Shown here: positions 8,981 to 23,539 of the stretch, in pieces | How positions within the stretch are numbered: the first letter of the stretch is position 1 | Layout of the letters: each line of letters starts with the position of its first letter | IMG/VR virus record: IMGVR_UViG_3300043466_000787 | Span: 1 to 23,998 of that record | Strand: one strand, 5' to 3' | Length of the DNA: 23,998 nucleotides | Source: a virus | Translations under genes and position numbers: made by a program | The notes under the pieces: model-generated | Databases searched by the model: none | Seen by the model: only the letters and a program-made list of their open reading frames with translations | What the model was told of the DNA's origin: nothing

Positions 8981-9270
8981 TATTGATTGATTTTATAATT
9001 TTGTAAATCTGTTTGATCCGTTGCAAATGCTTTGCCTCGAAATAGTGTATTTTCATTATCGTAAACTTCAAATTCAAAAGTGCTTCCTTCGCTTACTGTT
9101 TTGTCAAATTCAAAAGTCAAATAACCATAACTATAAACAGCCGACAAATCCTCAAAAGTTTCTTCTGTGGCTTTGCTTTCATCACGTATTTTTAACGTAA
9201 CTAAACCCGCTTCATAACGAGGTATAATAGTTACCGTTTGAGTTTCTTCAGATGGTCTAAATATTATCAT
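8980..9270 (-). CDS. Small beta-rich virion-associated protein
   Basis: A 96-residue protein starting MIIFRPSEETQTVTIIPRYE. Alternating hydrophobic/polar residues over the whole length predict a beta-sandwich (for example YGYLTFEFDKTV and STFEFEVYDNENTLFRGKAF). No enzyme motif, signal peptide or TM segment. It overlaps the portal gene start by 1 nt and is the first gene after a strong terminator, carrying the bipartite ATCA/TCGTTATAT element directly before its ATG. Small beta proteins beside the portal are common in Bacteroidota phages; a minor capsid or connector role is plausible but not shown. Confidence 0.65.
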   Translation of the reverse strand: MIIFRPSEETQTVTIIPRYEAGLVTLKIRDESKATEETFEDLSAVYSYGYLTFEFDKTVSEGSTFEFEVYDNENTLFRGKAFATDQTDLQNYKINQ

Positions 9271-9300
9271 ACTTATATAACGATAAAAATAATTTTTGAT
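9271..9300 (-). promoter_or_regulatory. Bipartite late-promoter candidate, copy 1
   Basis: Read leftward: ATCA (9300-9297), 13 nt, TCGTTATAT (9283-9275), AAGT, then the ATG at 9270. The same two boxes with identical spacing precede the ATGs at 11975 and 19640. This copy lies just after the terminator of the capsid unit, where a new promoter is needed for the portal-to-lysis genes. The box is only 4 nt from ATG, so the mRNA would be leaderless or nearly so. Confidence 0.7.
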
Positions 9301-9302
9301 AC

Positions 9303-9335
9303 AAAAAAAAAGACAGCGTAACCTAATACGCTGTC
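9303..9335 (-). terminator. Strong rho-independent terminator after the capsid unit
   Basis: Perfect 9-bp stem GACAGCGTA (9312-9320) and TACGCTGTC (9327-9335) with a 6-nt loop, followed leftward by nine U residues (A run 9303-9311). It lies 23 nt past the stop of the gene ending at 9359 and separates the capsid unit from the portal unit. Confidence 0.9.
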
Positions 9336-9358
9336 CTTAAACTCTATTTTAAAAAATA

Positions 9359-9895
9359 TTAATCGTTTACATATTGGTCAGAAACCAATGCAAGTAAAGA
9401 AGTAATAGCTGCACTTGATAATATTGGAGCAGTTTCAGGCTCTAACGCTTGTAACGTCATTTTCAATCCGTAGAAATCACCTAAAGCACCACCTAATTCT
9501 CTTGTTCCTGTTGTTTTATCAGCACCATTTTTCAATCCAATAGCGTGATAAGTTCCGTTGTTATCTTCTAAAAATATCAACATTCTATCTCTTGAAAGCA
9601 ATTTAGCCTGGTTTACTAAAGCAGCAGTTAAGCCGGTTAGTACTAAACTTAATTGACTATCATAAAAAATAGTTCCGTTATCTCTTGATGCTGTTTCAGT
9701 TTCAACATAAGTATTACCGGTATTTTTTAATTCAAATTTAAAAACTTCATCTAAAGTTCCTAAACCTGTAAGTTCTGAATTAACTACCGTTGCACCAATA
9801 TCTGAAAATGGAGCAAAAAAGGCATTAACTAAACCACCTGTAAAATTTTTGCATTCTAAAAGTCTGCCGTTTGTTATAAATTCACACGCTGCCAT
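9359..9895 (-). CDS. Virion structural protein (tail tube- or capsid-associated)
   Basis: A 178-residue protein made directly after the major capsid protein. The central pattern, FELKNTGNTYVETETASRDN (53-72), GTIFYDSQLSLVLTGL (73-88), LSRDRMLIFLEDNNGTYHAI (99-118), then a Gly-rich GALGDFYGLKMTLQALEPE (135-153), recalls an abundant Bacteroidota phage virion family. The beta-hairpin layout and the acidic loop before the last strand would suit a tail tube protein, while its place after the capsid gene could suit a capsid-stabilising protein. I cannot decide from sequence. A hairpin precedes it and a strong terminator follows, so it is probably highly expressed with the capsid gene. Confidence 0.65.
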   Translation of the reverse strand: MAACEFITNGRLLECKNFTGGLVNAFFAPFSDIGATVVNSELTGLGTLDEVFKFELKNTGNTYVETETASRDNGTIFYDSQLSLVLTGLTAALVNQAKLLSRDRMLIFLEDNNGTYHAIGLKNGADKTTGTRELGGALGDFYGLKMTLQALEPETAPILSSAAITSLLALVSDQYVND

Positions 9896-9913
9896 TATTA
9901 TAATGTTTTAAAT

Positions 9914-9936
9914 AAGGCGGTATTTTCAACCGCCTT
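9914..9936 (-). promoter_or_regulatory. Intergenic hairpin after the capsid gene
   Basis: Stem AAGGCGGT (9914-9921) and ACCGCCTT (9929-9936), 8 bp, 7-nt loop, starting 9 nt after the capsid stop. Leftward it is followed by only ATTTA, so it is at best a weak terminator. It may stabilise the 3' end of capsid mRNA or lower expression of the next gene. Confidence 0.55.
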
Positions 9937-9944
9937 GTTATTTA

Positions 9945-10859
9945 TTAAACTGTGTAAGTTGTGTATAAAACAACCTCTGAACCTCTTACATATTGTACTC
10001 CGGCTGTGTAAACCATTTTGTAACGTACTGTACCGCTCAAATCAGTTTCATCCATGTCTTTGATACGAACTTCATTGTGATCGCTTAAAAGACCTGTTCC
10101 AAAATAAAGATTTTTCTTTTGGTAGATTACCATTGTGTTAGCAGGTAAACCATTGATTATTTCTAATTTGTACATTCCTAAATACAACTCTTGACCTTGA
10201 CCACCTAAACCGTTGTTGATTCCTGCAGTAATTAAAGCATTGTTGTAAGCTTGTGCCACATCAGCAGATATAGCGAAAACTAAATCAGCTTTTCTTCTCA
10301 AAGCTACAGGAACTGCGTTTGATGCTTTTTGCATTTCAGCTACTACGTTTGAAGCAGTAATAGTTGCAGGTGAAGCCACATCGATTACAGTTGCATCTCC
10401 TAAAAACAATGGAATAAATCCATCAAAGTGACCATCATCTGTAGCCTCTCCAATCCAAATATCTGAATCAGTTGCTTGAGCAGTATCAGCTAAAATTTCT
10501 ACTAATAAAGCTTGTTCTTCATCTACCGGCATATTGTCATTATGAGCAGAGAATCCCATTGTAGCAGTATCCCATACATTTCTGAAATCTTCTTTACAAA
10601 GTTCAGCCTCGTTTTTGATTTTCTTTGGCTCTAAAATTACCTCGTCAAGTGTTACACTTCCCGCAGGAGCGAAACCACATGAATAATCTTGACGACCATT
10701 TCCGTAGTCAATTTTACGGATTACTTGTTTTACCGGAATGTTTGGTAAAATAGTTACCAAACCTTTTTGAATAGTATCTGCTTCTTTAAAAGCTTTTCCT
10801 ATTATTTCCCCTGCCACCGTTCCAGCATAGGAACTGTTTACTGTTGTTGTTGTTGCCAT
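9945..10859 (-). CDS. Major capsid protein, HK97-like fold
   Basis: A 304-residue protein in the size range of a mature-type HK97-fold capsid subunit. The N-terminal part (AGTVAGEIIGKAFKEADTIQ, residues 12-31), an E-loop-like stretch, a Cys-containing middle (AELCKEDFRN), and the C-terminal ALRRKADLVFAISADVAQAY followed by GLPANTMVIYQKKNLYFGTG fit capsid proteins of Bacteroidota siphophages. No scaffold (delta) domain is present; scaffolding is probably supplied by the C-terminal part of the adjacent protease gene. It starts 6 nt after the protease stop, with an A-rich upstream stretch typical of strong Bacteroidota translation starts. Confidence 0.85.
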   Translation of the reverse strand: MATTTTVNSSYAGTVAGEIIGKAFKEADTIQKGLVTILPNIPVKQVIRKIDYGNGRQDYSCGFAPAGSVTLDEVILEPKKIKNEAELCKEDFRNVWDTATMGFSAHNDNMPVDEEQALLVEILADTAQATDSDIWIGEATDDGHFDGFIPLFLGDATVIDVASPATITASNVVAEMQKASNAVPVALRRKADLVFAISADVAQAYNNALITAGINNGLGGQGQELYLGMYKLEIINGLPANTMVIYQKKNLYFGTGLLSDHNEVRIKDMDETDLSGTVRYKMVYTAGVQYVRGSEVVLYTTYTV

Positions 10860-10865
10860 TTTTTT

Positions 10866-11975
10866 TTAGTTTTTATTTTTTAATTCTGTTAATGATAATG
10901 CTAATCTTCCTTTTAATGTTTTTGGTTTTTCTGTTGTAGCTTGTATTGGTGCTACTTTTGTTTTGCTTACCGCAGGAGTTTCTGATAATTCAACTTTTAA
11001 AGTTTCGTTTTCTTTAACTTGCTCCGATAATTTAGTTTCGATTGCTGAAAATCTTTGCTCTAAATTCTCATTGAATTTAATTAGCATTGAACTAATAGCA
11101 TTTTTCAAATCTGAAACCTCACTTGTGTTTACTGATGCAGGAGCAGCCATTTCTTCAACCGGTGCTTCAACTACTTCTTCTTCTTCTTTTGCTGAAATCT
11201 CTGCAATTATGCCAACCTCTGCAACTGAAATTTTAGTTCCATCATTAAGAACGTACTCTCCAATTGGAGCAGGAACATTTCCATCAGGAGTTGCAACTGA
11301 AATAGTACCGCCAATCTCCGGAATTTCAGTTTCTGTTACCAATGTTAAACTGCCATCTTCGGTTTTCCATTCGGCCAATTTAACTTGTTTGCCTAAAAGA
11401 GTTTTAAACTCATTTAGCAAATCGTCTTTCATTTGTTTAAAATCCATATTTACTTTTGTTAATGTTACTTTTTCGTCAAACATACCTTCTATTGAAAATC
11501 CGCTTCCGTTATCTTTACACAATTGCCATTGCTCTTCATCTTCTATTTTCATAGCCACAACCCAACTGCCAACAGGCGCATCAATTCCGTATAATGCTGT
11601 TTTATCTTTTTCTAAATCTTCAACGATCCAACTCTCTACGATTGTTCCATTCAAAGTATATTTAGAATGCTCTAAATTTGCATTACTTTGATTGCCTTTT
11701 TTAAGATACAACTCCGAGGCACGTTTTATTGTTTCTTTAGAAAAATATACATAGTACTCTTCCTTTGTTTTTTCGTCAAATCGATAAATCTTTTTTTCGG
11801 GAATTAATGCAACCCCTAATAAGATTTTCTTTTCATTATCGATTTTAGCAAACTGTACTTTTTTTTCATCTGCCAAAGCAATAAACTTGCTTTCCATGGC
11901 TGGAGATCCAACTACTGCAATAGAGTCTACCCCTTGCAAATCTTCATCCGATAAAAATAGCTCGTATGTTTTCAT
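10866..11975 (-). CDS. XkdF-like prohead protease fused to scaffold domain
   Basis: A 369-residue protein. Residues 1-190 resemble the XkdF/herpesvirus-type prohead serine protease: His103 in NLEHSKYTL, the VESWIVEDLEKD strand (113-124), GSWVVAMKI (136-144) and the GFSIEGMF motif with the likely nucleophile Ser161. Such proteases cut scaffold and capsid N-termini during head maturation. The C-terminal third is acidic then Lys-rich (EEEEVVEAPVEEM near 265, a predicted coiled coil at roughly 285-335, then a Lys tail), as expected of an internal scaffold that is degraded. It directly precedes the capsid gene and carries its own bipartite ATCA/TCGTTATAT element. The exact catalytic triad is inferred. 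Confidence 0.8.
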   Translation of the reverse strand: MKTYELFLSDEDLQGVDSIAVVGSPAMESKFIALADEKKVQFAKIDNEKKILLGVALIPEKKIYRFDEKTKEEYYVYFSKETIKRASELYLKKGNQSNANLEHSKYTLNGTIVESWIVEDLEKDKTALYGIDAPVGSWVVAMKIEDEEQWQLCKDNGSGFSIEGMFDEKVTLTKVNMDFKQMKDDLLNEFKTLLGKQVKLAEWKTEDGSLTLVTETEIPEIGGTISVATPDGNVPAPIGEYVLNDGTKISVAEVGIIAEISAKEEEEVVEAPVEEMAAPASVNTSEVSDLKNAISSMLIKFNENLEQRFSAIETKLSEQVKENETLKVELSETPAVSKTKVAPIQATTEKPKTLKGRLALSLTELKNKN

Positions 11976-12005
11976 AACTATATAACGATTTTTTTTTTTA
12001 GTGAT
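11976..12005 (-). promoter_or_regulatory. Bipartite late-promoter candidate, copy 2
   Basis: Read leftward: ATCA (12005-12002), 13 nt that are almost all A, TCGTTATAT (11988-11980), AGTT, then the ATG at 11975. Both boxes and both spacings match the copies at 9270 and 19640. The intervening bases differ between copies, so the boxes rather than the whole region are conserved. No terminator lies between it and the tape measure stop at 12015, so it would add to readthrough from the tail unit and boost the head genes. Confidence 0.7.
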
Positions 12006-12014
12006 ATATTTTTT

Positions 12015-13964
12015 TTATCCAAAAGTTGAAGTAGCCACCGCATTTCTGTCTAAAGATTGCTGTGTGCTTACTTGGTTACCCACAACATAAGTTTGTATAG
12101 GTCTGTTCTGCTGTCCTGCAATAGTTTGACTTAATTGGTTAGTTGAACTTTGACCTACGATATTAAATTGTGGTGGTGGTGGTGGTGGTGCAAAACCTCC
12201 GCCTCCTGCCGCTCCGCCGCCGCCGCCGCCGCCCGGAGTTTTAACTGCTAAAATCTTTTTAACAGATGCGTAACCGGAAGCCAATGCTCCTGCTGCTGCA
12301 ACTGCTCCCAAAGCAATACCAACCGGTCCTGGAACTGCTGCCACCATTCCTTTAAATGCTGAAACTCCGGATTGAATTGTGTCTATTGTTGTTGCTGCTA
12401 CTGCCGCTGCTTTTCCTGCCGCTGTACTTTCACCTATTAAACCTGCCAATGTTTTTAGGCCTGAAGAAAATGATTGTAATGCTTTCTCTTTTGCGGCTTG
12501 TTTTTCTTCTTCTATTTTAATTTCTGCATCAGCACCCGCTTTTTTATTATCATAATCTTGTTTTTGATATTTTAAATTAATTTCATTAATTTCATTTTCT
12601 TGCGATTCTTTTAAAGCACTTGCATCTAATCCATTTTGTTCAGCATAAGCCAAATCTGCTTCATACTTTAAACGCACTCTTTCAATGTCCGCTTCCTGTT
12701 CAGTCATTTTTGAAAGCTCATTGTTTTTTCTCGCTTCCATTTCTTTATCAAAGAATGCAGTATCTGCTTTTTCTCTATCTAAAGCCGCTTGATTTGCTGC
12801 ATCAGTTTCAGCACGTTTTAATCTTAAAAACTCATCAATTCGTTCCTGATTTGCCTTTTTTTGATTTGCTAATAATTCATCATTATGTTTCTTTTGTGCC
12901 TCTGCTGCTTTTTCATTTGCCTTATTTCTTGCATCAGTTTCTTCTTGAACTTCAGCAACTCGGTTATCAATTATTAATTTTCTTCTATTTAAAACCGATG
13001 TTTTTAACGCCTCATTAGCTTCGTTAAATTCTTTTAATGCTCTTTTTGCAGTTTCTTTTTGAGCATCCGTTGCATCTTCTAAACCTGCAACTCTCATAGC
13101 CTCGATTGCGATTGCTCTTAAAGTTTGAGCGTTTGCCATTTTTTGCGCTACTTCTTGATTTGCTAATTCAAGAGATAGTTTTCTAATTTCTGCCGAACTT
13201 TGACCTGAAGCCTTTGCCATTTTTAATTGCGCATCTCTCGACAAATCTGATTCTTGCGTGGCTAACTTTTGGTTTTTTACTTGCGTGTCTAATTCTTTGT
13301 TTAATGCCTTGTTAGCCGCCTCTGCTTTTTGAGTGGCTTCAGAACTTGCAATAAACATTTTTACTAAAGCATAACCCGCAGCAATTAAAGCAGCAACAAC
13401 AGCCACGATTGCACCTATTGGATTGGCAGCCATAGCAGCATTCCAAATTAATTGAGCGGCAGCACTAATTCTTTGAACAATTGTAAAAGATTTAACTACT
13501 GCGCCAAGTTGTTTAAATGAATCTATGCTTTCACCTAATGCTTGTGCGCCACTTGCTATGGCCATGGCAGATTGAACTTTTAAAATCGCTCCTTCTACTT
13601 CTTTACTTTCCGTTCCAAGTGTTCCCATCAATCCGGTAACAACACTAAATCCACCTGCAACACCCGTCAACGCTCCGCTTAATGCTTTGAATTTTGCATC
13701 AGGGTTGAATGCTTCTGTAAGATTTTTGGCATCACCTATTCTATCTTTTAATTCTGCGGCTCTTTTAGCAGCTTCAACCGCTTCTCTTGAAGTTGCCCCA
13801 AACTTATCAGATAAGGCTGCTACATCCGCTTGAGCCTCTCGTAATTGTGTGCGTAAAGATTTGGCCGCTTCCTCACTTTGCTTAAAATTTTGCGTGAAGT
13901 TTTCAAGTCCGCCATTGGCACGTACTACATCAACATCTATCTCTATCGTTTTCTTAATAGCCAT
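12015..13964 (-). CDS. Tail tape measure protein
   Basis: A 649-residue protein. A coiled-coil-rich N-terminus (residues 25-80) is followed by small-residue helices, a hydrophobic segment (PIGAIVAVVAALIAAGYALV, 182-201), a long heptad-like region full of Lys/Glu/Ala/Gln (about 210-490), another hydrophobic Ala/Gly region, and a low-complexity C-terminus with seven-Gly and six-Pro runs. This is typical of tape measure proteins, which set tail length and help DNA cross the inner membrane. By the usual rule of about 0.15 nm per residue the tail would be near 100 nm. It lies after the large tail proteins and before the head genes, the reverse of the common order. Confidence 0.85.
   Translation of the reverse strand: MAIKKTIEIDVDVVRANGGLENFTQNFKQSEEAAKSLRTQLREAQADVAALSDKFGATSREAVEAAKRAAELKDRIGDAKNLTEAFNPDAKFKALSGALTGVAGGFSVVTGLMGTLGTESKEVEGAILKVQSAMAIASGAQALGESIDSFKQLGAVVKSFTIVQRISAAAQLIWNAAMAANPIGAIVAVVAALIAAGYALVKMFIASSEATQKAEAANKALNKELDTQVKNQKLATQESDLSRDAQLKMAKASGQSSAEIRKLSLELANQEVAQKMANAQTLRAIAIEAMRVAGLEDATDAQKETAKRALKEFNEANEALKTSVLNRRKLIIDNRVAEVQEETDARNKANEKAAEAQKKHNDELLANQKKANQERIDEFLRLKRAETDAANQAALDREKADTAFFDKEMEARKNNELSKMTEQEADIERVRLKYEADLAYAEQNGLDASALKESQENEINEINLKYQKQDYDNKKAGADAEIKIEEEKQAAKEKALQSFSSGLKTLAGLIGESTAAGKAAAVAATTIDTIQSGVSAFKGMVAAVPGPVGIALGAVAAAGALASGYASVKKILAVKTPGGGGGGGAAGGGGFAPPPPPPQFNIVGQSSTNQLSQTIAGQQNRPIQTYVVGNQVSTQQSLDRNAVATSTFG
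12172..12233 (-). repeat. Trinucleotide repeat runs in the tape measure gene
   Basis: A GGT run (12172-12190) encodes six prolines on the leftward strand, and a CCG/GCC run (12215-12233) encodes seven glycines. The GC-rich codons contrast with the AT-rich surroundings. Such triplet runs are prone to length change without frame loss, so the linker length may vary between relatives. Confidence 0.7.
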
Positions 13965-14092
13965 CTCTTATACTGTTTAATTGTTTCTTTAAAAGTTCTC
14001 GGGCAACGATAAGCACCTTTTGCAAATTCTATATTTTCGCTACCGTTATAATATTCCATTGTATTTAATAATTCTACTAAATTGCTTATCAT
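13943..14092 (-). CDS. Hypothetical 49-aa protein before the tape measure
   Basis: A short frame that fills the 124-nt gap between the large tail protein and the tape measure. Its ATG overlaps the upstream TGA (ATGA) and its TAG lies 22 nt inside the tape measure gene. The product starts MISNLVELLNTMEYYNGSEN and ends in a basic YKRWLLRKR tail, with one cysteine (Cys30). Position just before the tape measure is where tail chaperones often lie, but it shows no chaperone feature. Function unknown. Confidence 0.55.
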   Translation of the reverse strand: MISNLVELLNTMEYYNGSENIEFAKGAYRCPRTFKETIKQYKRWLLRKR

Positions 14093-16557
14093 CGTGTTTG
14101 TGTTATTGTTAATGTAAAAGTGTCAATCCCTATAACCACTTCTAAATCCATAGTTCTAACATCTGTTGGGTTTGTTATTGCACTTGTGTATTCTGAAACT
14201 TTAATTAAAAGATATGCGCTTGTATTTCCAAAAGTATTTTCTAAATCAACCCATCCAACACCATCGCCTGTATCAACTTTAGTAACTACATAAGGACTAT
14301 TTGCGAGTATTTTTAAATCATAATTTTGCGCTCCACTTGTAACGTTTAAAGTATCATACTGAATGCTGTTTTCAAATGGTGAATATTGTGGCAAATAGTA
14401 GTAAGTAGCATCCGCACTTATGTCAGTTGTATCAACCGAGTATTCAATAGTATCAACTGTAATAGCTATAATTGAGTTTACACTCTTAAAAGGCGCACCG
14501 ATATAGTTTAAAAGTTCATAATTTACCTCTCCTGTGGTAAGATTTGAACGCATTGAATTGATAATATATGCCTTATCGCTTATTTGTATCCTATCATTTA
14601 GGTTAATATCAATCATTTTGCCTATTGGCAACTGCGCTCTGTAGTTACCTAATCGTCTTTTACTTGAATATAAGTCTGAAATAAAGTCTTGCCAATAGTT
14701 GCTGAATAAATTTTTATTTATTTCAGAGTATAAAAACGTTGATACGTCAGTAGAAAAGTTTACCGATTGGGTAACCTGGTCTAAAAAACTATCATTTTCA
14801 GTTGAAGTAAACCATGTATAATCTAAATCAGAATGTTCAGCAGCCTTAATTGGTAAATCATAAAACTGATAACCGGATCTATAAAACAAATAAGGCTTAC
14901 CAATGTAAGGTTTAAGATTTTTATCAATCGATTTACCAACTTGCACGTTTGTAACATCATCATTACTTCTATCAATCAATCTTTCAAACATTAAGTTATC
15001 AAATTGAGTTTCAACTTTTAACTCACCACCATCAATATCGTAGGTAGTAGCCAAGTCACCATAACCTAAATCAAGTCCGTTGTTTTCTCTAAATCGCTCA
15101 TTTAATATTTGCCCTGACTTTTGATGTTTAAAGTCTATACGTTTAAAGAGCTTCGGTTTTTTTATTGTAATATCTTTGGTATCTATGTAATTTGTAATAT
15201 CAACTAATTTACCCTTACTATACCAATCGTCTAATGGAATGAATGAAAAGCTATTGTTTGAGATTGGTGTTAAAACCAAATTAAACATCTTAATAATTGA
15301 AGTAATAAAATCCCTAACTTTTAACTTTGGTATTTGTTCATTGATTTTTAAAATAGAATTAGATGTTGTTTGACTTGGTGAAGTTGCATATAAATATCTT
15401 ATAGCTATTAGGGGTTGAGGTGTAGGAAAAGGAGGATACTGTATTAAACCTTGATAAAATATAGCAGATGTAAATGTTAAATTACCTCCAATGCTTGAAA
15501 TTTTAAATGTAAATAAATGATTTGAGGGATCTTCTGATTCATATTTATTATATATTAAAGTTTGTGAATTTTGAAATAAATTTGTATGTGTATAGTATAA
15601 AACACCATTATCATAAATTTCTAAATTATAAGGATAAGAAGATGTTGTATATATAAATACAGAAAAACCAGCTTTTTTAACGCCCGGTGCTATATTATAA
15701 GTAGAAAAATTATTCTCCCAATCTATTAAAACAGAGTTTGTAGTAATATTAATTTCAGGACTTGGAACAGCCCAATCATCATTCAATACTGTTAAACTTG
15801 TAATATCTATTTCTAATGATGTTGAAGTGACTTTAATTTGTTCTGAATAAGAATGCAACCACATAAACAAATTACCAAAGGCAGCACGATTTAAAAACTC
15901 CCTATCAAATGTAATATTATATTTATTCTCTATGGCTTCTATTATACGAATTACTCTAATAGCAGGTTTTAAATCAGTAAATTTTATCTGTCCTAAAACA
16001 TCAGTAATATCATCAGTATTTGATGTTCCAATTTGAAAGTTTCTAACGCTTGAAATTAATGGGTAATAAATATCGCCATTATTTATACTTTCGTCTTGTG
16101 TTGCATTGAAAACAACAGCTCTGCTAAACTCATGGTTAAACTCTGATAAGTCTAAACCTGTTAACTCATCATCTCCAAATTTATCAGATAGGTTTACTAC
16201 TTTTGAAAAGAAGCGAATTGTATAACTTGTAGGTTGAGTATTTTTTAGCTTAACATCTTCCAACTGAATTAACCCAAATCTAAAAGGTAAACTGCCAATC
16301 TCAATTAACGAGCTTACACGAATATTAGGGTTAAAACTTCCATCAACATCGGAGTTATAATAGTGTTGAAATATTCTATTATTTGTATCACTTGCCGGAA
16401 CTGTAAAACTCTGACTAAAATCGCTGAAGGTTTTTGAAATATCGTTTATATTTGAAACGCTTGAATTTAACTCAAAGTTTTCATCCTTAAACAAATCAAC
16501 CTTTATAAAATTATTGGGGTTGTTTATATCTAATATGTATAGGTTAGTTCCTATCAT
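14089..16557 (-). CDS. Large tail protein with BACON-like C-terminal domain
   Basis: An 822-residue virion protein. The N-terminal part, with SVSNINDISKTFSDFSQSFT (33-52), VPASDTNNRIFQHYYN (53-68), a PFRFGLIQLEDVKLKN stretch and SYTIRFFSKVVNLSDKFGDD, matches a tail/baseplate protein type shared by many Bacteroidota phages. The middle contains long beta-rich and Asn/Ser-rich segments. The last 100 residues, ending in WVDLENTFGNTSAYLLIKVS and a terminal FTLTITQTR strand, resemble a BACON domain, a beta-sandwich that in Bacteroidota proteins often binds mucin or glycans. A baseplate-hub or tail-tip role is likely; glycan binding is inference. It starts 1 nt inside the previous stop. Confidence 0.7.
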   Translation of the reverse strand: MIGTNLYILDINNPNNFIKVDLFKDENFELNSSVSNINDISKTFSDFSQSFTVPASDTNNRIFQHYYNSDVDGSFNPNIRVSSLIEIGSLPFRFGLIQLEDVKLKNTQPTSYTIRFFSKVVNLSDKFGDDELTGLDLSEFNHEFSRAVVFNATQDESINNGDIYYPLISSVRNFQIGTSNTDDITDVLGQIKFTDLKPAIRVIRIIEAIENKYNITFDREFLNRAAFGNLFMWLHSYSEQIKVTSTSLEIDITSLTVLNDDWAVPSPEINITTNSVLIDWENNFSTYNIAPGVKKAGFSVFIYTTSSYPYNLEIYDNGVLYYTHTNLFQNSQTLIYNKYESEDPSNHLFTFKISSIGGNLTFTSAIFYQGLIQYPPFPTPQPLIAIRYLYATSPSQTTSNSILKINEQIPKLKVRDFITSIIKMFNLVLTPISNNSFSFIPLDDWYSKGKLVDITNYIDTKDITIKKPKLFKRIDFKHQKSGQILNERFRENNGLDLGYGDLATTYDIDGGELKVETQFDNLMFERLIDRSNDDVTNVQVGKSIDKNLKPYIGKPYLFYRSGYQFYDLPIKAAEHSDLDYTWFTSTENDSFLDQVTQSVNFSTDVSTFLYSEINKNLFSNYWQDFISDLYSSKRRLGNYRAQLPIGKMIDINLNDRIQISDKAYIINSMRSNLTTGEVNYELLNYIGAPFKSVNSIIAITVDTIEYSVDTTDISADATYYYLPQYSPFENSIQYDTLNVTSGAQNYDLKILANSPYVVTKVDTGDGVGWVDLENTFGNTSAYLLIKVSEYTSAITNPTDVRTMDLEVVIGIDTFTLTITQTR

Positions 16558-17954
16558 TATTGTACGTTATTAATGATGTCAAATGAATATTTAAAGTTGA
16601 ATGAGTATTGTATTAGCTTGTCGTTTAATTGCGTTTTATAAGCTACCGATTTGCTTTCTAAATTTACCGGAAGTATTTCGCCATCTTCAATAAACCATAT
16701 TTTCTCTGACAATAACATTTGTTTTATATTCTCGTTTTCAATCTCGTTTAAGTAATCAGTATTACAAACTATTTCACTTCTTCCGTTTAAATTAAAGTTG
16801 CTGTATTGATGATCCGCTGTATTGTAAATACCAAAGTTAGAAGTCAACCCTCTGTAATCTTCGCTATCAACTTGGTCTGTTATTTTGTTTACTAACGTAA
16901 GAAAAAATGATTGTGGAAATCCGAACTTATTTATAAATACGCAATTGATAACCGGATAAATACAGCCATCTAAAACATCATAAGTTATTGTGCGTGTTTC
17001 ATCTTCATAAACAAACTCACAAATTATAGCATCGTCAGTATCGTAGTCTTTTAAATTGATACTTTGAATGTACTCTGTATTCAAATCCAAATTGGCAGTA
17101 ATAGTAATTGCATCGCCATTAACCTCCAAAGAAGTTAATCCATCCGTAATAAAATACAGCCTATTATCTTGGTCTCTAAAATGTCTTTGATTGTTATTAG
17201 ATATTAAAACTTTACTTGATAATTGAGGATTGAAACCCTCGTTAAAATAACCATAGCCATATACACCTAATAAAGTTCCTGATGTTTCGTATATGTTATC
17301 ATTATTATTATAACAAGCCACATAATAATAAACCCAAGTACTCGCATTATAATTAGATGGTTGCACTCCCGAAAGCAAATAATTTGAAATATCGCCTTGA
17401 GTAAATTCTTTTATTAAATTATTAATATCAAAATTTATCGTTGTTTGCCCTAATTGAACAACTTGCTTTGATAGGTTATAACTTGCAACAATAGGAACGT
17501 TATTTATATCCCCTTGCCATATAAACAACCCTAATTCTGCTGTGTCATATAATTCAGATGGGGTAATTCTTAAAGAATAAGTTGAACGTGCTAAAGCTAT
17601 TCTTAAAGGCTCTTCAATAGGTGGCACTATTTCATTAATTAATACATCAGCACTCGATGAATCAAGAATTGGGAATGATAATATTGATTCATCTACTACA
17701 TCAAAATCAAAATATATAATATTACTTGTTAATGTTATTGTTTGGATCGCCGTTTGCCAAGCAGGAAATTGCCCCGGTAATAAATACCAATTATACAAGT
17801 TCAATGCAGTAGCTTCCTTATTTAATCCTATGCTTACAGTTATGCCTAAAGTAGCACCTTTAAAGTTGCTATTAGCTCCATAAGTAACTTCAAATCCTAT
17901 ATTTGTTCCTGATGAAGGATTGTTTACAAATTCTATTTTAATTCTTTTTGCCAT
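16557..17954 (-). CDS. Tail structural protein, probable distal tail component
   Basis: A 465-residue beta-rich protein upstream of the large tail protein. Recognisable segments are an N-terminal MAKRIKIEFVNNPSSGTNIG, a middle with LRIALARSTYSLRITPSE (116-133), and GCIYPVINCVFINKFGFPQS near residues 330-349, a motif common in tail proteins of Bacteroidota phages. It has no signal peptide and no enzyme motif. Gene position after the terminator-like and gp10-like proteins suggests a distal-tail or baseplate role. It overlaps the upstream gene by 17 nt. The exact homologue cannot be named. Confidence 0.55.
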   Translation of the reverse strand: MAKRIKIEFVNNPSSGTNIGFEVTYGANSNFKGATLGITVSIGLNKEATALNLYNWYLLPGQFPAWQTAIQTITLTSNIIYFDFDVVDESILSFPILDSSSADVLINEIVPPIEEPLRIALARSTYSLRITPSELYDTAELGLFIWQGDINNVPIVASYNLSKQVVQLGQTTINFDINNLIKEFTQGDISNYLLSGVQPSNYNASTWVYYYVACYNNNDNIYETSGTLLGVYGYGYFNEGFNPQLSSKVLISNNNQRHFRDQDNRLYFITDGLTSLEVNGDAITITANLDLNTEYIQSINLKDYDTDDAIICEFVYEDETRTITYDVLDGCIYPVINCVFINKFGFPQSFFLTLVNKITDQVDSEDYRGLTSNFGIYNTADHQYSNFNLNGRSEIVCNTDYLNEIENENIKQMLLSEKIWFIEDGEILPVNLESKSVAYKTQLNDKLIQYSFNFKYSFDIINNVQ

Positions 17955-18477
17955 CTTCTAAAGTAAATTTTAAAAACGTTTCAACATCTAATCCGTATGC
18001 TTCTATTACTGTATTGTCCAATCCTTTAAATCCAACTGCAAAAGCATCCGTAAAAAATAAACTTGGCCTTATCCCTGTGTTGAATATTGACCTGCGAATA
18101 TTGAATAACATTTGGGATCTACTTGCAAACTTTCCGTTTGCTCTTGGTGCTATTCCTTTTCTAATTACCCAAGCATTAATAGCAGTTTTGAACATTCCTT
18201 TTGGAGCTGTTCCTGTGCCAAACTTATACGGACTATTTGGTGCTTTAGTGCTTGACCTTGCACCCTTAACTCCCAGGTCTTGAAACGTTCCATAATCTTC
18301 CATTGAGAAAGATAATTGAAAGCTATTAGGACTTACTTTGTAATCGCCACTTATTGATTTCGATAAATTACCACTTGCGTTTTTGCCCTTACGTGCTAAA
18401 TTAGTTCTCGCCTTTGAAACAACCTCATTGATAAATTGCTTCAAAGCTATCTCTGTATTTTTCTTACTAACAGACAT
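17938..18477 (-). CDS. HK97 gp10-like neck/tail protein
   Basis: A 179-residue basic protein. A helical N-terminus (EIALKQFINEVVSKARTNLA), a GNLSKSISG turn and the strand FQLSFSMEDYGTFQDLGVKG (53-72) reproduce the HK97 gp10-like pattern (YG.F.D.GV.G). Proteins of this family lie at the head-tail interface and are often called neck or minor tail proteins. The Ser/Thr/Gly/Pro-rich loop (75-95) and Arg-rich segment (106-132) are typical. It overlaps the preceding tail-terminator-like gene by 11 nt. Confidence 0.75.
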   Translation of the reverse strand: MSVSKKNTEIALKQFINEVVSKARTNLARKGKNASGNLSKSISGDYKVSPNSFQLSFSMEDYGTFQDLGVKGARSSTKAPNSPYKFGTGTAPKGMFKTAINAWVIRKGIAPRANGKFASRSQMLFNIRRSIFNTGIRPSLFFTDAFAVGFKGLDNTVIEAYGLDVETFLKFTLEDGKKN

Positions 18478-18922
18478 TGATTTCGTTGTTTGGAATTATC
18501 AGTTCCAATTCAGTTCGCCATCCATCCAACAAATTCATATCTTCAAATATGATAGGTGTTAATGTAGGTATGTTATTCAATTCAATCTTATCAGCATTAT
18601 TTTGAAGTCTTAACTTTGTAACCAATCTATTTAAAACAGCGTGGCAAGTGTTAAGATTATCCAATTCGTTATCATTTTGTAACCATTTATCAGTTACTAT
18701 CTTTTTACTTATATTTCTTAAATCCACTACAGCAACCTCAAACGTAAAAGATATAAATTGATTGTCAGCAGTTGATGATGTAACTTGCAAATGCGCCAAA
18801 GGAAATACATTTTTTTTATTTATATCCATGCCGGACTTCAACCCATGAACAATAGTATGAACATTTACATCATCTTCAAGTAAGTCTTTTAATAGTTCAA
18901 TCGTTAAATAAAATCCTCTCAT
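18467..18922 (-). CDS. Tail terminator-like protein
   Basis: A 151-residue alpha/beta protein. The sequence MRGFYLTIELLKDLLEDDVN, a central FPLAHLQVTSSTADNQFISF strand pair, a long helix (NLNTCHAVLNRLVTKLRLQN) and a final LDGWRTELELIIPNNEI strand follow a family found in Bacteroidota phages in the tail-completion position. A terminator/completion protein caps the tail tube at the head-proximal end. Its ATG overlaps the TGA of the frameshifted chaperone extension (ATGA), which indicates that the extension frame is really translated. The family assignment is from memory. Confidence 0.6.
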   Translation of the reverse strand: MRGFYLTIELLKDLLEDDVNVHTIVHGLKSGMDINKKNVFPLAHLQVTSSTADNQFISFTFEVAVVDLRNISKKIVTDKWLQNDNELDNLNTCHAVLNRLVTKLRLQNNADKIELNNIPTLTPIIFEDMNLLDGWRTELELIIPNNEINVC

Positions 18923-19185
18923 TTGTTTTGCTTTTTAATCATTTCAATTGCGCACTCTGACTTTTCCTTTTCAAATTCCAATATTCTTAACGTTTTTGTA
19001 ATTGGATATTCCAATACTTCTTCTTCTTCTTTGTGGTTTAATTCTGCTAAAGCTCGAATGCTAACGTACCAACCCCACTTTGCGTTAAATAGGCTCTCCC
19101 TTGTTTGCTCTTTTTCAAAATAGACATCGAATAATCCACTGTGTAATTTCCTAAGTCTTTCAGTAAAGCGAAAAAAAAAGCACAC
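18919..19185 (-). CDS. Tail assembly chaperone, -1 frame extension
   Basis: This open frame, entered by GTG at 19185 and without a good start of its own, overlaps the end of the 197-aa chaperone gene. It is best read as the C-terminal part of a -1 frameshift product: ribosomes slip at the T tract (19171-19179) and continue with RFTERLRKLHSGLFDVYFEK and then KWGWYVSIRALAELN, LRILEFEKEKSECAIEM and a Lys tail. The predicted fusion is about 240 residues, 156 from the upstream frame. A KWGWY segment followed by an Ile/Leu-rich helix looks like the C-terminal part of other Bacteroidota tail chaperones. The TGA overlaps the next ATG, as expected for a translated frame. Standalone translation from GTG is possible but less likely. 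Confidence 0.7.
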   Translation of the reverse strand: MCFFFRFTERLRKLHSGLFDVYFEKEQTRESLFNAKWGWYVSIRALAELNHKEEEEVLEYPITKTLRILEFEKEKSECAIEMIKKQNK

Positions 19186-19640
19186 GCACCAAAATAATAC
19201 TCACTTGGAGCATCTTTAAATAATTCATGAGTGCCGGTATAAGGAGCAATATCATAAAATGGCTCTGTTCTTTTAAACCAATTACGCTTAAACTTTACAA
19301 CAGGGCGATATAATATTGACATCGCTTTGTAAAACGTTTCAGGCTTGGCCATATACATCTCCAAATCGATATATTCAGCGGTTGAAAGGTTATCTAACTT
19401 TGGGATAAATCCATAATGAACACCTTTGTAAACAAATCTGCGATGAAAATTAGGATCAATGGTTAAAGTCTTATTAACTATTTCAGTTATCTCTTGAAAG
19501 TCTTTTAACTGCAATAGGTTTGTGTTTTCAATCTCACAAAAGATTGACACTAAATCCTGATTAGTTTGCTCGGAGTTTTGAAACTCGACAAATTGATTTA
19601 GTGTTATATCCTGTAGCGATGTTGGTATGTTTATCTTCAT
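19047..19640 (-). CDS. Tail assembly chaperone, short (G-type) form
   Basis: A 197-residue protein beginning MKINIPTSLQDITLNQFVEF. It is mainly helical, with an acidic region (EYIDLEMYMAKPETFYKAMS, 89-108) and an aromatic-rich stretch (KRNWFKRTEPFYDIAPYTG). Position at the head of the tail unit, and an overlapping -1 frame reached through a T tract, mark it as the G/G-T chaperone that coats the tape measure during tail assembly. Without frameshifting, translation continues 40 residues past the tract to the TGA at 19047; with it, a 240-aa form is made. The family is assigned mostly from this frameshift layout. It carries the third bipartite ATCA/TCGTTATAT element before its ATG. Confidence 0.75.
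   Translation of the reverse strand: MKINIPTSLQDITLNQFVEFQNSEQTNQDLVSIFCEIENTNLLQLKDFQEITEIVNKTLTIDPNFHRRFVYKGVHYGFIPKLDNLSTAEYIDLEMYMAKPETFYKAMSILYRPVVKFKRNWFKRTEPFYDIAPYTGTHELFKDAPSEYYFGACAFFFALLKDLGNYTVDYSMSILKKSKQGRAYLTQSGVGTLAFEL
19171..19179 (-). other. Slippery T tract for programmed -1 frameshift
   Basis: The leftward strand reads GCT TTT TTT TTC in the chaperone frame, so T TTT TTT (19179-19173) is a perfect X-XXY-YYZ heptamer. Slipping back 1 nt enters the overlapping frame, which is open to 18919. A weak hairpin (CTTT-ACTG-AAAG) follows. The nine-base run could also support transcriptional slippage or be an assembly error. Confidence 0.65.
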
Positions 19641-19670
19641 ACCAATATAACGACAAAAAAGTGTTTTGAT
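19641..19670 (-). promoter_or_regulatory. Bipartite late-promoter candidate, copy 3
   Basis: Read leftward: ATCA (19670-19667), 13 nt, TCGTTATAT (19653-19645), TGGT, then the ATG at 19640. Spacing is identical to the copies at 9270 and 11975. It falls in the 31-nt gap between the terminase gene and the tail unit, and no terminator is visible there. Confidence 0.7.
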
Positions 19671-20835: not shown

Positions 20836-21184
20836 CTAAATCGATTGTTTTAAATATTGGTTTCTCAACTTCTTCAACTGCATTGTGAGTCATAGATAGT
20901 TTGCGCAGCTCTTCAGGAGTTGAAATTAATTTCATCAATCCCATTTGCAAAGTTGGATTGTCAGATTGATACCACTTGGATCGCATTGATGTTTTAATTT
21001 GAGTTTTGTTAATTGAAATTAACTCTTTTAATGTATCCAATTCATCCGACTTATTAGGAAAAAAATCATAAAAAGTAGAACGACTGCAAGGCAAAAAGTC
21101 AGGAACTTCATCCATAAAAAACAATTTATGTTTAACTACCATTTCTTTTGCCTGTTCAAATATTTTAATCTTGTCGTATGCCAT
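20807..21184 (-). CDS. terS: Terminase small subunit
   Basis: A 125-residue protein directly before and overlapping the large-subunit gene. Residues 8-45 contain a likely helix-turn-helix (KHKLFFMDEVPDFLPCSRST, 18-37, then FYDFFPNKSDE), followed by a helix (LKELISINKTQIKTSMRSKW), a FYDFFPNK motif typical of small terminase subunits in Bacteroidota phages, and an acidic tail. It would bind the packaging site and present DNA to the large subunit. The assignment rests on position and HTH pattern. It overlaps the methyltransferase gene by 20 nt. Confidence 0.75.
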   Translation of the reverse strand: MAYDKIKIFEQAKEMVVKHKLFFMDEVPDFLPCSRSTFYDFFPNKSDELDTLKELISINKTQIKTSMRSKWYQSDNPTLQMGLMKLISTPEELRKLSMTHNAVEEVEKPIFKTIDLDVDQNDSAE

Positions 21185-22346: not shown

Positions 22347-22669
22347 AAAAGCTTCTTTAATTTCTTAATAAATGACTTCCAAACCCCAGGACAATTTGTG
22401 CAAGGATCAAATGGCTTCACTCGGTAGCATTTAAAATATATGCTTGAGATTTTATGTTGCATTTCTTTATTTAGTTCTGTTGGATTAGATGCAAACAATG
22501 TACCTAAATATTCTCTTTCGTCATCTTCTAAATCCAATGCTCCAATCGGGAAAAGATTGTTAAGCTTTTCTTTTCTTTTATTGCAGTCATCACATGGCTC
22601 AATTCCTACTGCTTCGGTTATGGATGCTATTATATCTCCCGCTCCTGTAATTTTTTTACGTCTTCCCAT
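22343..22669 (-). CDS. Hypothetical Cys-containing protein
   Basis: A 108-residue protein with a Gly-rich start (MGRRKKITGAGDIIASITEA), a CxxC pair (Cys26, Cys29) followed by KRKEKLNNLFP, and a second Cys group (Cys81, Cys90, Cys93, pattern C-x8-CTNC). Two CxxC-type pairs could together bind one zinc. Similar proteins with a GAGD start and a CxxC motif occur in Bacteroidota phages near the terminase genes. It overlaps the sigma-like gene by 40 nt and the methyltransferase gene by 4 nt. Function unknown. Confidence 0.65.
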   Translation of the reverse strand: MGRRKKITGAGDIIASITEAVGIEPCDDCNKRKEKLNNLFPIGALDLEDDEREYLGTLFASNPTELNKEMQHKISSIYFKCYRVKPFDPCTNCPGVWKSFIKKLKKLL

Positions 22670-23094
22670 AGTTGTTCTTTTGTTTTTTTTACCGTTTTTT
22701 GAATCACCAATAAATTTATGCCGGTTTGTCGAGATAATTCTCGTTGGCTCATCTCCTGGGTTGTTACTTTTAAAAGTTCACGTTCAAAAAAAGGTAATTG
22801 TTTTACTTTTTTTAGTGTTATTTCTTTTATTTCGTCTAATTCAAAATCGTAAGTATCAGCGAAGATATTAAAATTATCAATTAGTTCAACTGTTTTTGTT
22901 TTTTTGTCTTTTAATTTGTCAAGCCAAATGGACTTGATTGCAAAGTAAATATAAAAATCATTGACCTTTTTATCGTAATTAGCAAATTTAAGATACATAT
23001 CCTGGACAAGGTCGTCAGCGGTATCATGGCTTTTACAAATATGAAATGCCATTTTGCGCCAATCTTTATCTCGCTTTGCTAATTCTTCAAGCAT
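22630..23094 (-). CDS. Sigma-70-like factor (regions 2 and 4)
   Basis: A 154-residue protein with the layout of a short (ECF-like) sigma factor. Residues 12-60 match region 2: HDTADDLVQDMYLKFANY (23-40), then FAIKSIWLDKLKDKK. Residues 96-146 match region 4: QLPFFERELLKVTTQEMSQR (99-118), ELSRQTGINLLVIQKTVKKT (119-138). The HTH in region 4 would read a -35 element and region 2 the -10. The linker between (66-95) is acidic. Such genes occur in Bacteroidota phages but their targets are unknown. Here it lies in the first leftward unit, upstream of three copies of a non-host bipartite promoter-like element, making it the natural candidate to read them. It could also be a sigma-derived regulator without RNA polymerase activity. 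Confidence 0.8.
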   Translation of the reverse strand: MLEELAKRDKDWRKMAFHICKSHDTADDLVQDMYLKFANYDKKVNDFYIYFAIKSIWLDKLKDKKTKTVELIDNFNIFADTYDFELDEIKEITLKKVKQLPFFERELLKVTTQEMSQRELSRQTGINLLVIQKTVKKTKEQLWEDVKKLQEREI

Positions 23095-23310
23095 TTAGTT
23101 CTTATCCATTAGGTTTCTAATAGCAATATTTTTTTTAACCTCATCGTACAGCTCCCCATTAAACTCCAATATAAAATCAGTTCCTTTTATAACCAAGCAC
23201 ATTGTCTCGCTGTCAATCACATAACAGCCATTGACATCAGAGATAACAAAATCGAAATTTCTATATTCCTGATCCTCTTCCGTTTGAATTAAAACTCTTG
23301 GCTGCTTCAT
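23095..23310 (-). CDS. Hypothetical 71-aa protein, first leftward gene
   Basis: A small, acidic, beta-rich protein (MKQPRVLIQTEEDQEYRNFD, then FVISDVNGCYVIDSETMCLV and FILEFNGELYDEV). No family recognised, no TM segment. Its stop adjoins the ATG of the sigma-like gene without overlap. An exact -7 element TATCTTTG ends 5 nt before its ATG, so its mRNA would be leaderless or nearly so. As the first gene of the leftward block, it could be a regulator, but nothing in the sequence shows this. Confidence 0.6.
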   Translation of the reverse strand: MKQPRVLIQTEEDQEYRNFDFVISDVNGCYVIDSETMCLVIKGTDFILEFNGELYDEVKKNIAIRNLMDKN

Positions 23311-23315
23311 AAAAA

Positions 23316-23323
23316 CAAAGATA
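23316..23323 (-). promoter_or_regulatory. Host-type -7 element before the first leftward gene
   Basis: Leftward, TATCTTTG (23323-23316) matches TAnnTTTG exactly. No TTG lies 19 nt upstream, so the promoter may need an activator. The start would fall at about 23312, one or two bases before the ATG at 23310. Confidence 0.45.
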
Positions 23324-23407: not shown

Positions 23408-23539
23408 ATGACAACTCAAGAAATTAAAACAAACATTGAAAGATTAGAAAATACAATTAAAATGAATATTTGGAATAAAGGTTATGTTGAAAATTGTAAA
23501 TCGCAAATTGAAAATTATAAGTTAATGTTAAATGAATAA
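23408..23539 (+). CDS. Hypothetical 43-aa protein, first rightward gene
   Basis: A short helical protein (MTTQEIKTNIERLENTIKMN, then WNKGYVENCKSQIENYKLML), with a heptad-like pattern suggesting a small coiled coil. It is the first gene after the consensus rightward promoter, with an AAAAATT leader typical of Bacteroidota. It overlaps the next gene by 8 nt. Early expression is expected; function unknown. Confidence 0.6.
   Translation: MTTQEIKTNIERLENTIKMNIWNKGYVENCKSQIENYKLMLNE

Follow-up and report, generated by a model that had tools for sequence, protein, structure and literature searches.

Background

For the transcription of its late genes, phage T4 uses a σ-like subunit of its own (gp55/gp33), and the T4 late promoter is a -10 box, TATAAATA. 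These promoters are described as having the sliding clamp as co-activator (PMC2988020). A second arrangement is described for phiEco32 (gp36), phage 7-11 and SU10, in which a phage σ of the ECF class serves middle and late promoters while early genes have host-σ promoters (PMC4331800, PMC4281155, PMC7881722). The hallmark of ECF promoters is given as AAC in the -35 and CGT in the -10 element, the canonical EcfG promoter being AAC/CGTT (PMC8103513).

The DNA considered here (the window) is the whole of record G000, 23,998 nt of an incomplete genome. Three two-box elements within it are very probably late promoters of a tailed Bacteroidota phage, at which host core RNA polymerase (RNAP) together with a phage-encoded ECF-like σ (22630-23094) would generate leaderless mRNAs; we infer the σ-RNAP binding, the start site, the late timing and the leaderless translation.

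Three two-box elements and the units that they head

A search of the full record for ATCA-N13-TCGTTATAT-N3-T-ATG finds three zero-mismatch copies, all on the minus strand, and no others. The first-pass annotation had reported the same boxes, gap and ATG distance at the genes starting at 19640, 11975 and 9270, with varying bases between the boxes; both observations are confirmed, as the copies are exact and their spacers differ. No exact match arose in 400 simulated windows (first-order Markov, same composition). When up to three mismatches are allowed, the 24 matches versus 15.9 expected are too noisy to be of use; what stands out is the exact class alone.

Candidate late promoter 1 (19641..19670, minus strand) has ATCA at 19667-19670 and TCGTTATAT at 19645-19653, with the CGTT core at 19649-19652; this copy, which spans 19645-19670, is followed by NNNT and then the ATG of gene 19047-19640 in the tail unit. 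Candidate late promoter 2 (11976..12005, minus strand; ATCA 12002-12005, TCGTTATAT 11980-11988, copy 11980-12005) heads the unit of an XkdF-like protease (gene 10866-11975, Pfam PF14550) and the major capsid protein. The probable major capsid gene (9945..10859, minus strand), our anchor for finding relatives, matches phrog_11320 and phrog_1623 (virion structural protein, 2.3e-5), and its distant homologs are annotated as major capsid protein. Candidate late promoter 3 (9271..9300, minus strand; ATCA 9297-9300, TCGTTATAT 9275-9283, copy 9275-9300) heads the portal-to-lysis unit (gene 8980-9270). Just upstream of it, an intrinsic terminator (9309..9338, minus strand), a stem of 12 bp followed by a T run, ends the head unit; the strong terminator noted earlier beside one copy is therefore real. 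The proposal that each copy opens a functional unit (tail, head, portal-lysis) is likewise supported; the element is present at three of the 29 listed minus-strand starts of the window, one per unit.

ATCA is what can be seen of a longer -35 box, which in most relatives reads (A/T)CAAA. In the window the boxes are ATCAAA (-35) and CGTTATAT (-10), and most relatives have AACAAA at -35; among the three copies, degeneracy is greatest in the -35 box at 11975 (ATCACTAA). In the second box, the CGTT core is constant among close relatives of the window and varies at its first two positions across the wider family. No host-type TAnnTTTG is present within 60 nt upstream of the three late starts. A scan for σ70-type promoters was uninformative (83 sites, 90.8 expected).

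Conservation in relatives and in phage P12024L

All three candidate promoters are conserved in relatives, promoter 1 at the orthologous start. Within 161 loci, 108 ORF starts have CGTT or NGTTA at -12, and 82 of these 108 belong to orthologs of the three window genes. Across 2,083 upstream regions, CGTTA occurs 65 times at -12 versus a mean of 2.9 per position, and CAAAA occurs 67 times at -28 versus a mean of 11.4; thus, the upstream box, about 28 nt from ATG, is also fixed in position. Four long relatives (30-35 kb) have the motif at these three genes as well. That related phages should share the element at corresponding gene starts had been set in advance as a point on which the promoter claim could fall, and the claim survived. 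The accompanying suggestion of a -35/-10-type pair unlike the host TAnnTTTG is in turn supported by this comparative evidence. In several distant relatives (e.g. L047-L049, L054, L058, L063, L064) the protease start has no NGTT at -12. A scan of genome contigs yielded one close relative, L163, which lies in a Bacteroidetes MAG.

The cultured Nonlabens phage P12024L has six motif-bearing starts, with ATGs at 179, 3031, 5412, 24771, 26011 and 27612; its σ is gp35, and the host-type element there lies before 20463. Its spacing from CAAA to CGTT is two bases longer, and gp40, the homolog of gene 19640, is without the motif, which instead precedes gp42. When a position matrix is trained on relatives that are not in the window's exact-motif clade, the window sites come out at ranks 1, 2 and 5; the top 14 of this matrix in P12024L include only one of the six sites. 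The σ gene and the motif share one record in the window, in the four long relatives and in P12024L. In seven Bacteroidota phages without the σ, the full motif is found at 0 of 549 ORFs. The -35 regular expression was wider for the relatives and the window than for these controls and P12024L; this cannot change the contrast much because only 3 of the 549 control ORFs have GTTA at -11. As far as comparison of sequences can speak, the reading of the three elements as promoters is strongly supported.

A phage-encoded ECF-like σ and its operon

The gene at 22630..23094 (minus strand) encodes 154 aa and is likely an ECF-like σ, the proposed reader of the three promoters. Its domains are σ2 (residues ~1-64), a linker (65-82) and σ4 (~84-153). 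Pfam finds region 2 below the cut-off (PF04542, 4.6e-4, 20.4 versus 24 bits) and shows no region 4; phrog_1740 (σ factor) matches at 4.4e-5, and TIGR02937 (σ70-ECF) matches over residues 13-142 at 6.8e-9, with 35.6 bits versus a cut-off of 42.9. The σ of relative L110 scores above that cut-off (43.4 bits). Among the A3 members, Pfam detects region 2 at E <= 0.1 in 7/7 and r4_2 in 1/7. The best PDB sequence match is the σ of Bartonella quintana RpoE-NepR (5uxx, E 1.4e-4 over 13-145). An AF2 model places helices within 2-65 and 84-153, with a low-confidence linker at 65-82 and a pTM of 0.42; the model thus has σ2 and σ4 only, joined by a linker of <50 residues, as ECF σ factors do. Foldseek with this model gives five matches at E <= 0.001, four of them ECF σs, and superimposes region 4 of E. 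coli σE with a TMt of 0.79 at 1.6 A (E 0.15, prob 1.00). Whole-chain matches have TM of ~0.3-0.4 and rmsd of ~11-26 A; these values, with the pTM, do not fix where the two domains lie relative to each other. The gene had escaped the first-pass annotation.

On the DNA side, the family consensus, AACAAA / [C,A,T]GT[T,C], resembles the AAC/CGT of ECF promoters, and the window's own -35 has ATCA, not AAC. The first-pass annotation had taken the form to belong to no described phage promoter class in Bacteroidota, whereas the consensus of the relatives is near the published ECF type.

Directly upstream of the σ gene lies a small ORF of 71 aa (23095..23310, minus strand), presumed to be the first gene of the σ operon, which has no PHROG match up to E 0.1. 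Five nt before its ATG at 23310 is a host-type -7 element, TATCTTTG (23316..23323, minus strand), the probable host-σ promoter of the operon. A host-type element is similarly placed in 11 of 39 σ clusters versus 1 of 39 on the opposite strand; by record, it precedes the σ operon in the window, the G001 contig, G002, G004, G006 and P12024L, and is absent in G003. No late motif that could indicate autoregulation is present before 23310 or 23094 in the window, where TATCTTTG is found instead.

In the proposed scheme, the σ operon would be transcribed early from TATCTTTG, and the phage σ would then take the place of the host primary σ on core RNAP. Region 4 of the phage σ would bind the -35 box, while region 2 would bind and open the -10 box CGTTATAT. 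Transcription would begin at or beside the A of ATG, so that the transcripts of the tail, head and portal-lysis units would lack a leader.

Geometry of the start

The -10 box lies exactly 12 nt before ATG in 58 of 79 cases. T is present at -1 in 72 of 77 boxed starts, compared with 43% at 1,938 other ORFs; in another set it is found in 80/81, although there one of the five points used in site selection was given to T at -1. In these phages, the host-type TAnnTTTG is likewise most frequent at -12 and is often placed for leaderless starts. Since the F. johnsoniae host promoter is numbered T-12...G-5 (PMC6847099), a peak at -12 puts +1 at ATG. From the fixed distance between box and ATG, the late transcripts are probably leaderless. 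The placement of the box, then, fits the earlier claim of leaderless transcripts and has comparative support, while the 5' end itself is what we infer from it.

Covariation of σ residue 59 with the -10 box

Residue D59 of the window σ (codon 22918..22920, minus strand) lies in region 2.4, and this position covaries with promoter position -11 and partly with -12. With a first regular expression for the late promoter (N-GT[T/C]), no site was selected for 69 of the 150 distinct σ proteins; seven of the 69 had <1.5 kb downstream, many others had shifted or changed -10 boxes, and a few had nothing recognisable. Because of these failures we repeated the analysis, picking the downstream gene by protein homology alone. 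This gave 132 distinct σs. Eleven were dropped and named ahead of the count, for lack of either an NNTY box in register (L213, L276, L258, L221) or a -35 box (L205, L149, L152, L255, L316, L098, L157); several of them lie at visibly wrong starts. Two of the dropped cases, L098 (M59/CATT) and L258 (D59/AGTT two bases further up), would fit the -11 rule. The 121 remaining pairs still hold wrong or ambiguous picks, such as L004 (gp40 without the motif) and L133/L158 (register ambiguous).

Of the 107 pairs with D, N, S or E at residue 59, 104 have G at -11; of the 14 with other residues none does, and these residues go with NATT or NCT(T/C). Among the relatives, L094 combines D59 with CGTT and L095 combines N59 with TGTT. 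After clustering at 80% the counts are 39/42 and 0/13. Residue 59 is the top column for -11 (z 8.0, next 4.6), with shuffle z-scores that ignore relatedness. Tree contrasts account for relatedness and offer few independent pairs: the well-supported ones go the same way in 3-4/4 and 4-5/6 cases and the opposite way in none, with a sign test not <0.05. At least some of the 3 in 93 D59 pairs without G stem from wrong or ambiguous site choice. For position -12, N59 accompanied T in an earlier set of 81 σs (phi 0.95, next column 0.61; five changes each on the tree); the top columns listed for -12 in the larger set do not include residue 59. L327 (N59, AGTT) and the dropped L276 (N59, AGTA) do not fit the N-to-T rule, and the L156/L157 site (N59/TGTT) is weak, lying at the edge of a contig or ahead of a short ORF; if it is left out, the rule rests on four lineages. 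An apparent covariation of -28/-29 with region-4 residues was rejected, since it is confounded by spacer length and clade and residue 15 scores equally high.

The evidence leans, by a modest degree, toward a broader picture in which a widespread lineage of Bacteroidota phages would use a compact ECF-like σ of its own to run the late programme, from promoters fused to the start codon that head leaderless late units. The region-2.4 residue (D59 in the window) would act as a recognition switch, with D/E/S/N specifying G at -11 (N mostly also T at -12), Q/R/A/T specifying A, and Y/K and one of two H specifying C; residue and late promoter would have switched together repeatedly. Host-type promoters, also placed for leaderless starts, would make this a phage-wide strategy in hosts with mostly leadered mRNAs.

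Alternative explanations

ECF start sites vary by 1-3 nt, and in 28 of the 121 pairs the box is at -11 or -13 rather than -12. Thus, the promoters could be real and read by the phage σ, with transcription starting a few bases upstream or within the ORF to give a short leader or an internal start. This is unlikely, however, given that T at -1 followed by the A of ATG is near-invariant (72/77), as a pyrimidine-purine start would be, and that the host-type element peaks at a position that also places +1 at ATG. Late promoters of fixed geometry are also a property of T7-like phages, yet a phage-encoded single-subunit RNAP is hardly credible as the reader: the elements have a two-box layout with σ-type spacing. 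PF00940 (T7-type RNAP) has no match in eight records, comprising relatives and the complete P12024L, in a search whose positive control, T7, was matched.

To our knowledge, Bacteroidota lack Shine-Dalgarno sites, and the fixed distance to ATG might suggest that the element is a translation-initiation signal and no promoter. That is very improbable, since the element occurs at 3 of 29 listed window starts, each opening a unit, the box some 28 nt upstream of ATG is also fixed in position, and the covariation is with a residue of a σ. In F. johnsoniae, moreover, initiation is described as aided by A at -3 and -6 (PMC6847099), whereas G stands at -3 before two of the three window genes, although A is common there in the wider set. 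The boxes could also be promoters or operators for a host factor, either the primary σ with a phage activator or one of the arsenal of ECF σs that host Bacteroidota are reported to hold (PMC7366714), the phage σ-like gene having some other role. This explanation is quite improbable, because the three starts lack TAnnTTTG in the preceding 60 nt, the motif is absent from the seven σ-less Bacteroidota phages, and the promoter bases track residues of the phage's own σ.

Significance and comparison with known systems

If promoters read by the phage σ are the correct explanation, late transcription can be read from sequence (σ, promoters and late units) across a large group of Bacteroidota phages from the environment, and the σ-promoter pairs provide a natural experiment on ECF -10 recognition and its change, as well as possible genetic parts for Bacteroidota. 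P12024L on Nonlabens/Persicivirga IMCC12024 is a cultured phage-host pair, open to direct test. Leaderless late mRNAs would be notable because host mRNAs are mostly leadered: 87% of predicted F. johnsoniae transcripts are given leaders >10 nt (PMC6847099), and ~3.7% of B. thetaiotaomicron 5' UTRs are <10 nt (PMC7366714).

Relative to the literature matches listed, which include no paper on a Bacteroidota phage σ or leaderless late promoters, the σ family, the bipartite promoters and the leaderless geometry look new compared with known phage ECF σs (phiEco32). The available portions of three flavophage papers (PMC4615864, PMC8776804, PMC7077304) mention neither subject. Like the phiEco32 or Kuravirus type, the proposed scheme combines a phage ECF-class σ with host-σ early promoters. 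However, the phiEco32 type is found in Enterobacteria phages and the present σ in Bacteroidota phages, and the motif described for the former, tAATGTATAtA, lies 6-8 nt upstream of the start, whereas here there are two boxes, AACAAA and NGTT; by inspection, the tAATGTATA consensus is absent from the three window sites. Homology of the window σ to phiEco32 gp36 is not detectable (BLASTP E 13; hhalign probability 0.6%).

T4 resembles the proposal in using a phage σ-like subunit for late genes, but its -10 box TATAAATA is absent here. The host Bacteroidota primary-σ promoters (TAnnTTTG / TTTG) apparently serve the σ operon; TAnnTTTG is absent at the three late sites. Bacterial ECF σs (group IV) share with the phage σ the architecture of σ2, short linker and σ4 and the AAC/CGT promoters; a co-transcribed cognate anti-σ factor and positive autoregulation are typical of them, whereas the window σ does not have its own motif upstream and the 71-aa ORF before it matches no PHROG. 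Unlike them, the σ described here is phage-borne, its promoters abut the start codon, and it is proposed to control structural genes.

The two-box element and the genes that it precedes

The pattern ATCA-N13-TCGTTATAT-N3-T-ATG is present exactly three times in the window (a linear IMG/VR record of 23,998 bases). All three copies are minus-strand and end in the start codons of genes 19047-19640, 10866-11975, and 8980-9270. The same exact search found no copy in 400 simulated windows that kept the dinucleotide make-up. Thus, the first-pass annotation, which had described one bipartite element used three times, is borne out. The element lies at 3 of the 29 minus-strand starts printed for the window, and the remaining starts lack it; a looser flag also marks a plus-strand 50-aa ORF at 23532, which we take as a chance match.

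Gene 10866-11975 encodes an XkdF-like prohead protease (PF14550, 5.2e-14), and the next gene, 9945-10859, probably encodes the major capsid protein (phrog_11320; distant homologs carry that annotation). A terminator at 9338-9309 (12 pairs followed by a T run) closes this head unit directly before the third element copy, in agreement with the strong terminator noted earlier. Downstream of gene 8980-9270 comes the portal gene (7166-8980; phrog_33693, 1.1e-96). Gene 19047-19640, which follows the terminase gene (19672-20835), matches phrog_32199, a PHROG without assigned function, and 12015-13964 is recognized as a tape-measure gene by eye. It is therefore fair to describe the units, as the first-pass annotation did, by the names "tail", "head", and "portal to lysis". 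Within the putative tape-measure gene, a run of GGTGGT/CCGCCG repeats (12170-12240) codes for a Gly/Pro-rich stretch near the C-terminus.

A phage sigma factor

The first-pass annotation made no mention of a phage sigma gene; one is indicated by matches to sigma profiles and ECF folds. The gene, at 22630-23094 on the minus strand, lies upstream of the terminase genes and encodes a protein of 154 aa. This protein has matches to Sigma70_r2 (4.6e-4, under the Pfam cut-off), phrog_1740 "RNA polymerase sigma factor" (4.4e-5), and, across residues 13-142, TIGR02937 "sigma70-ECF" (6.8e-9; 35.6 bits, where the cut-off is 42.9). The sigma of one relative (L110) reaches 43.4 bits with the last profile, and a nine-relative profile matches the sigma of PDB 5uxx across 13-145 (1.4e-4). 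In an AF2 model of the window sigma (pLDDT 76.5, pTM 0.42), a linker modeled with low confidence (65-82) connects two helical domains. Foldseek gives five matches at E <= 0.001, four of them ECF sigmas, with whole-chain TM values of just 0.3-0.4 because the domains are placed differently; taken by itself, region 4 of E. coli sigmaE aligns at 1.6 A (TMt 0.79, E 0.15). The fifth match is to an "RNA-guided transcription complex" (9n9q, chain C), and the modeled sigma could possibly be structurally akin to a sigma-like subunit of that system. Farther downstream, one gene past the neighbour of the sigma gene, 21165-22346 encodes a 393-aa protein that appears, by eye, to combine a ParB-like N-terminal part with a DNA methyltransferase.

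When three different sigma members were used as tblastn queries (E 0.01-0.1) against 50,697 phage records, the sole matches were four Nonlabens phage P12024L/S records. The sigma is common in IMG/VR, where one scan found it in 167 of its 281 candidate stretches. Five sigma and one capsid IMG/VR scans, one genome scan, and P12024L together gave 252 sigma-bearing loci with 150 distinct sigma proteins, overlapping loci from one contig being tallied separately. One locus, L163 (CANLAV010000016.1), belongs to a Bacteroidetes MAG: this contig of 32 kb carries a phage whose sigma is 97% identical, perhaps an infecting phage that was binned with its host and would thus be a lead to that host.

Conservation of the boxes

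The full motif is absent from all 549 ORFs of seven Bacteroidota phages without the sigma (no tblastn match at 0.01), and GTTA at -11 from the ATG is found at 3 of these ORFs. By the same rule cultured P12024L has the motif at 6 of 65 ORFs; under a somewhat wider -35 rule it is present at 3 of 32 ORFs in the window and at 2-3 of 47-54 in each of five long relatives.

Relatives fetched by capsid protein (76 loci) were read before the orthologs of the three window genes. Among the orthologs listed, the element is kept in relatives, though not in all of them, down to about 30-45% protein identity; at the protease start of several distant relatives (including L047-L049, L054, L058, L063, and L064) NGTT is absent at -12. 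The element thus withstood the refuting test set by the first-pass annotation, which asked whether related phages keep it at the same gene starts. Among 2,083 non-redundant ORF upstream regions from 161 loci, CGTTA peaks at -12 (65; per-position mean 2.9), GTTAT at -11 (89; mean 5.1), and CAAAA at -28 (67; mean 11.4), and 82 of the 108 ORFs with CGTT or NGTTA at -12 are orthologous to the three window genes (31, 26, and 25). Four relatives of 30-35 kb each carry the element at the three orthologous genes and at no further called ORF. The L163 contig has it at two ORF-called starts, plus one found by pattern. P12024L has six sites (genes 179, 3031, 5412, 24771, 26011, and 27612), with a CAAA-CGTT gap two bases wider, and its homolog of gene 19640 is without the motif. 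One result runs counter to this: when 40 relatives' sites from outside the exact-motif group of the window were used to train a matrix, it ranked the window sites 1, 2, and 5 rather than 1-3 (scores 20.5, 14.8, and 10.4; maxima in 200 null windows averaged 11.4, the largest being 19.8), and its top 14 in P12024L recovered one of the six sites.

Promoter geometry and probable leaderless transcripts

In 58 of 79 matches the box lies exactly 12 nt from the ATG, every other distance having at most 5, and T directly precedes the ATG in 72 of 77, versus 43% of 1,938 other ORFs. The host-type element TAnnTTTG also peaks at -12 in the 2,083 upstream regions (21, plus 10 at -13, of 181), with lesser peaks at -54 (13) and -39 (12). 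Since F. johnsoniae promoters run from T-12 to G-5 relative to +1 (PMC6847099), an element at -12 puts +1 at the ATG, which suggests that many early genes of these phages are leaderless as well. Such a start precedes the sigma operon in 11 of 39 clusters, compared with 1 of 39 in an opposite-strand control under a looser rule. Host mRNAs are mostly leadered (PMC6847099 for F. johnsoniae; PMC7366714 for B. thetaiotaomicron); leaderless placement, with start sites predicted from geometry, therefore looks like a phage habit. In P12024L, small minus-strand ORFs (2750-2980, 5123-5365, and 25649-25945) diverge from the proposed late promoters. At the first two, the late promoter region also contains a host-type TATATTTG on its other strand, which would possibly place early and late promoters back to back.

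Covariation of sigma residue 59 with promoter bases

Residue 59 (D59 in the window) sits in the stretch aligning with 5uxx, which we take to be region 2.4. In a set of 81 distinct sigmas, each paired with one late promoter by a regex blind to -12 but demanding GT, all 10 sigmas whose promoter has T at -12 have N59, as does one other sigma (phi 0.95; next-best column 0.61). On the sigma tree, residue and promoter base each show five changes. Because this regex demanded GT, a second analysis picked the downstream gene by protein HMM (210 of 242 loci, 132 distinct sigmas) and used only the third and fourth letters to place the tetramer in register -12, -11, or -13, keeping 121 pairs and dropping 11. 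Where residue 59 is D, N, S, or E, 104 of 107 pairs have G as the second letter; where it is A, H, K, Q, R, T, or Y, none of the 14 pairs does. After clustering at 80% identity (55 clusters) the counts are 39 of 42 versus 0 of 13. The second letter is A in 7 of 7 Q59 pairs and C with Y59, K59, and one of two H59 pairs. Residue 59 is the top column for this letter (z 8.0; next 4.6). For the first letter it is not within the six best columns listed, and N59 accompanies T in 9 of 10 pairs. The tree of this set has 14 promoter and 12 residue changes; among six well-supported independent pairs, 4-5 agree and none disagree, and the sign test stays short of 0.05. Two N59 sigmas (L327 and L276) are exceptions to the N-to-T rule, their late promoters having AGTT or AGTA rather than TGTT. 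Between the L116-L135 group and L118/L340, AGTC replaces AGTT at -12 to -9 while the region-2.4 segment is identical (NSYIYTILRNLFYDS), so residue 59 does not explain the fourth letter.

Such covariation is the trace expected of a sigma that reads its own promoter, and it would be hard to explain if something else read the boxes. A T7-type polymerase was not found in eight related records, in a search that detected the T7 positive control. In the proposed scheme, host holoenzyme would use TATCTTTG, located before 23310, to express the sigma operon. Core RNAP would then be guided by the sigma to the three late promoters and would make leaderless transcripts spanning the tail, head, and portal-lysis genes.

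Comparison with known systems

ECF sigmas of phages are already known from phiEco32 and its kin (PMC4331800, PMC4281155, and PMC7881722). Their motif differs from the two-box element, and no protein similarity of the window sigma to the phiEco32-type sigma is detectable. Since the architecture and promoter type are those of ECF sigmas, while the window protein falls below the profile cut-off and autoregulation is not seen in the window, we call it "ECF-like". The system appears to work like an ECF sigma with AAC/CGT promoters, the hallmarks that PMC8103513 gives for ECF promoters.
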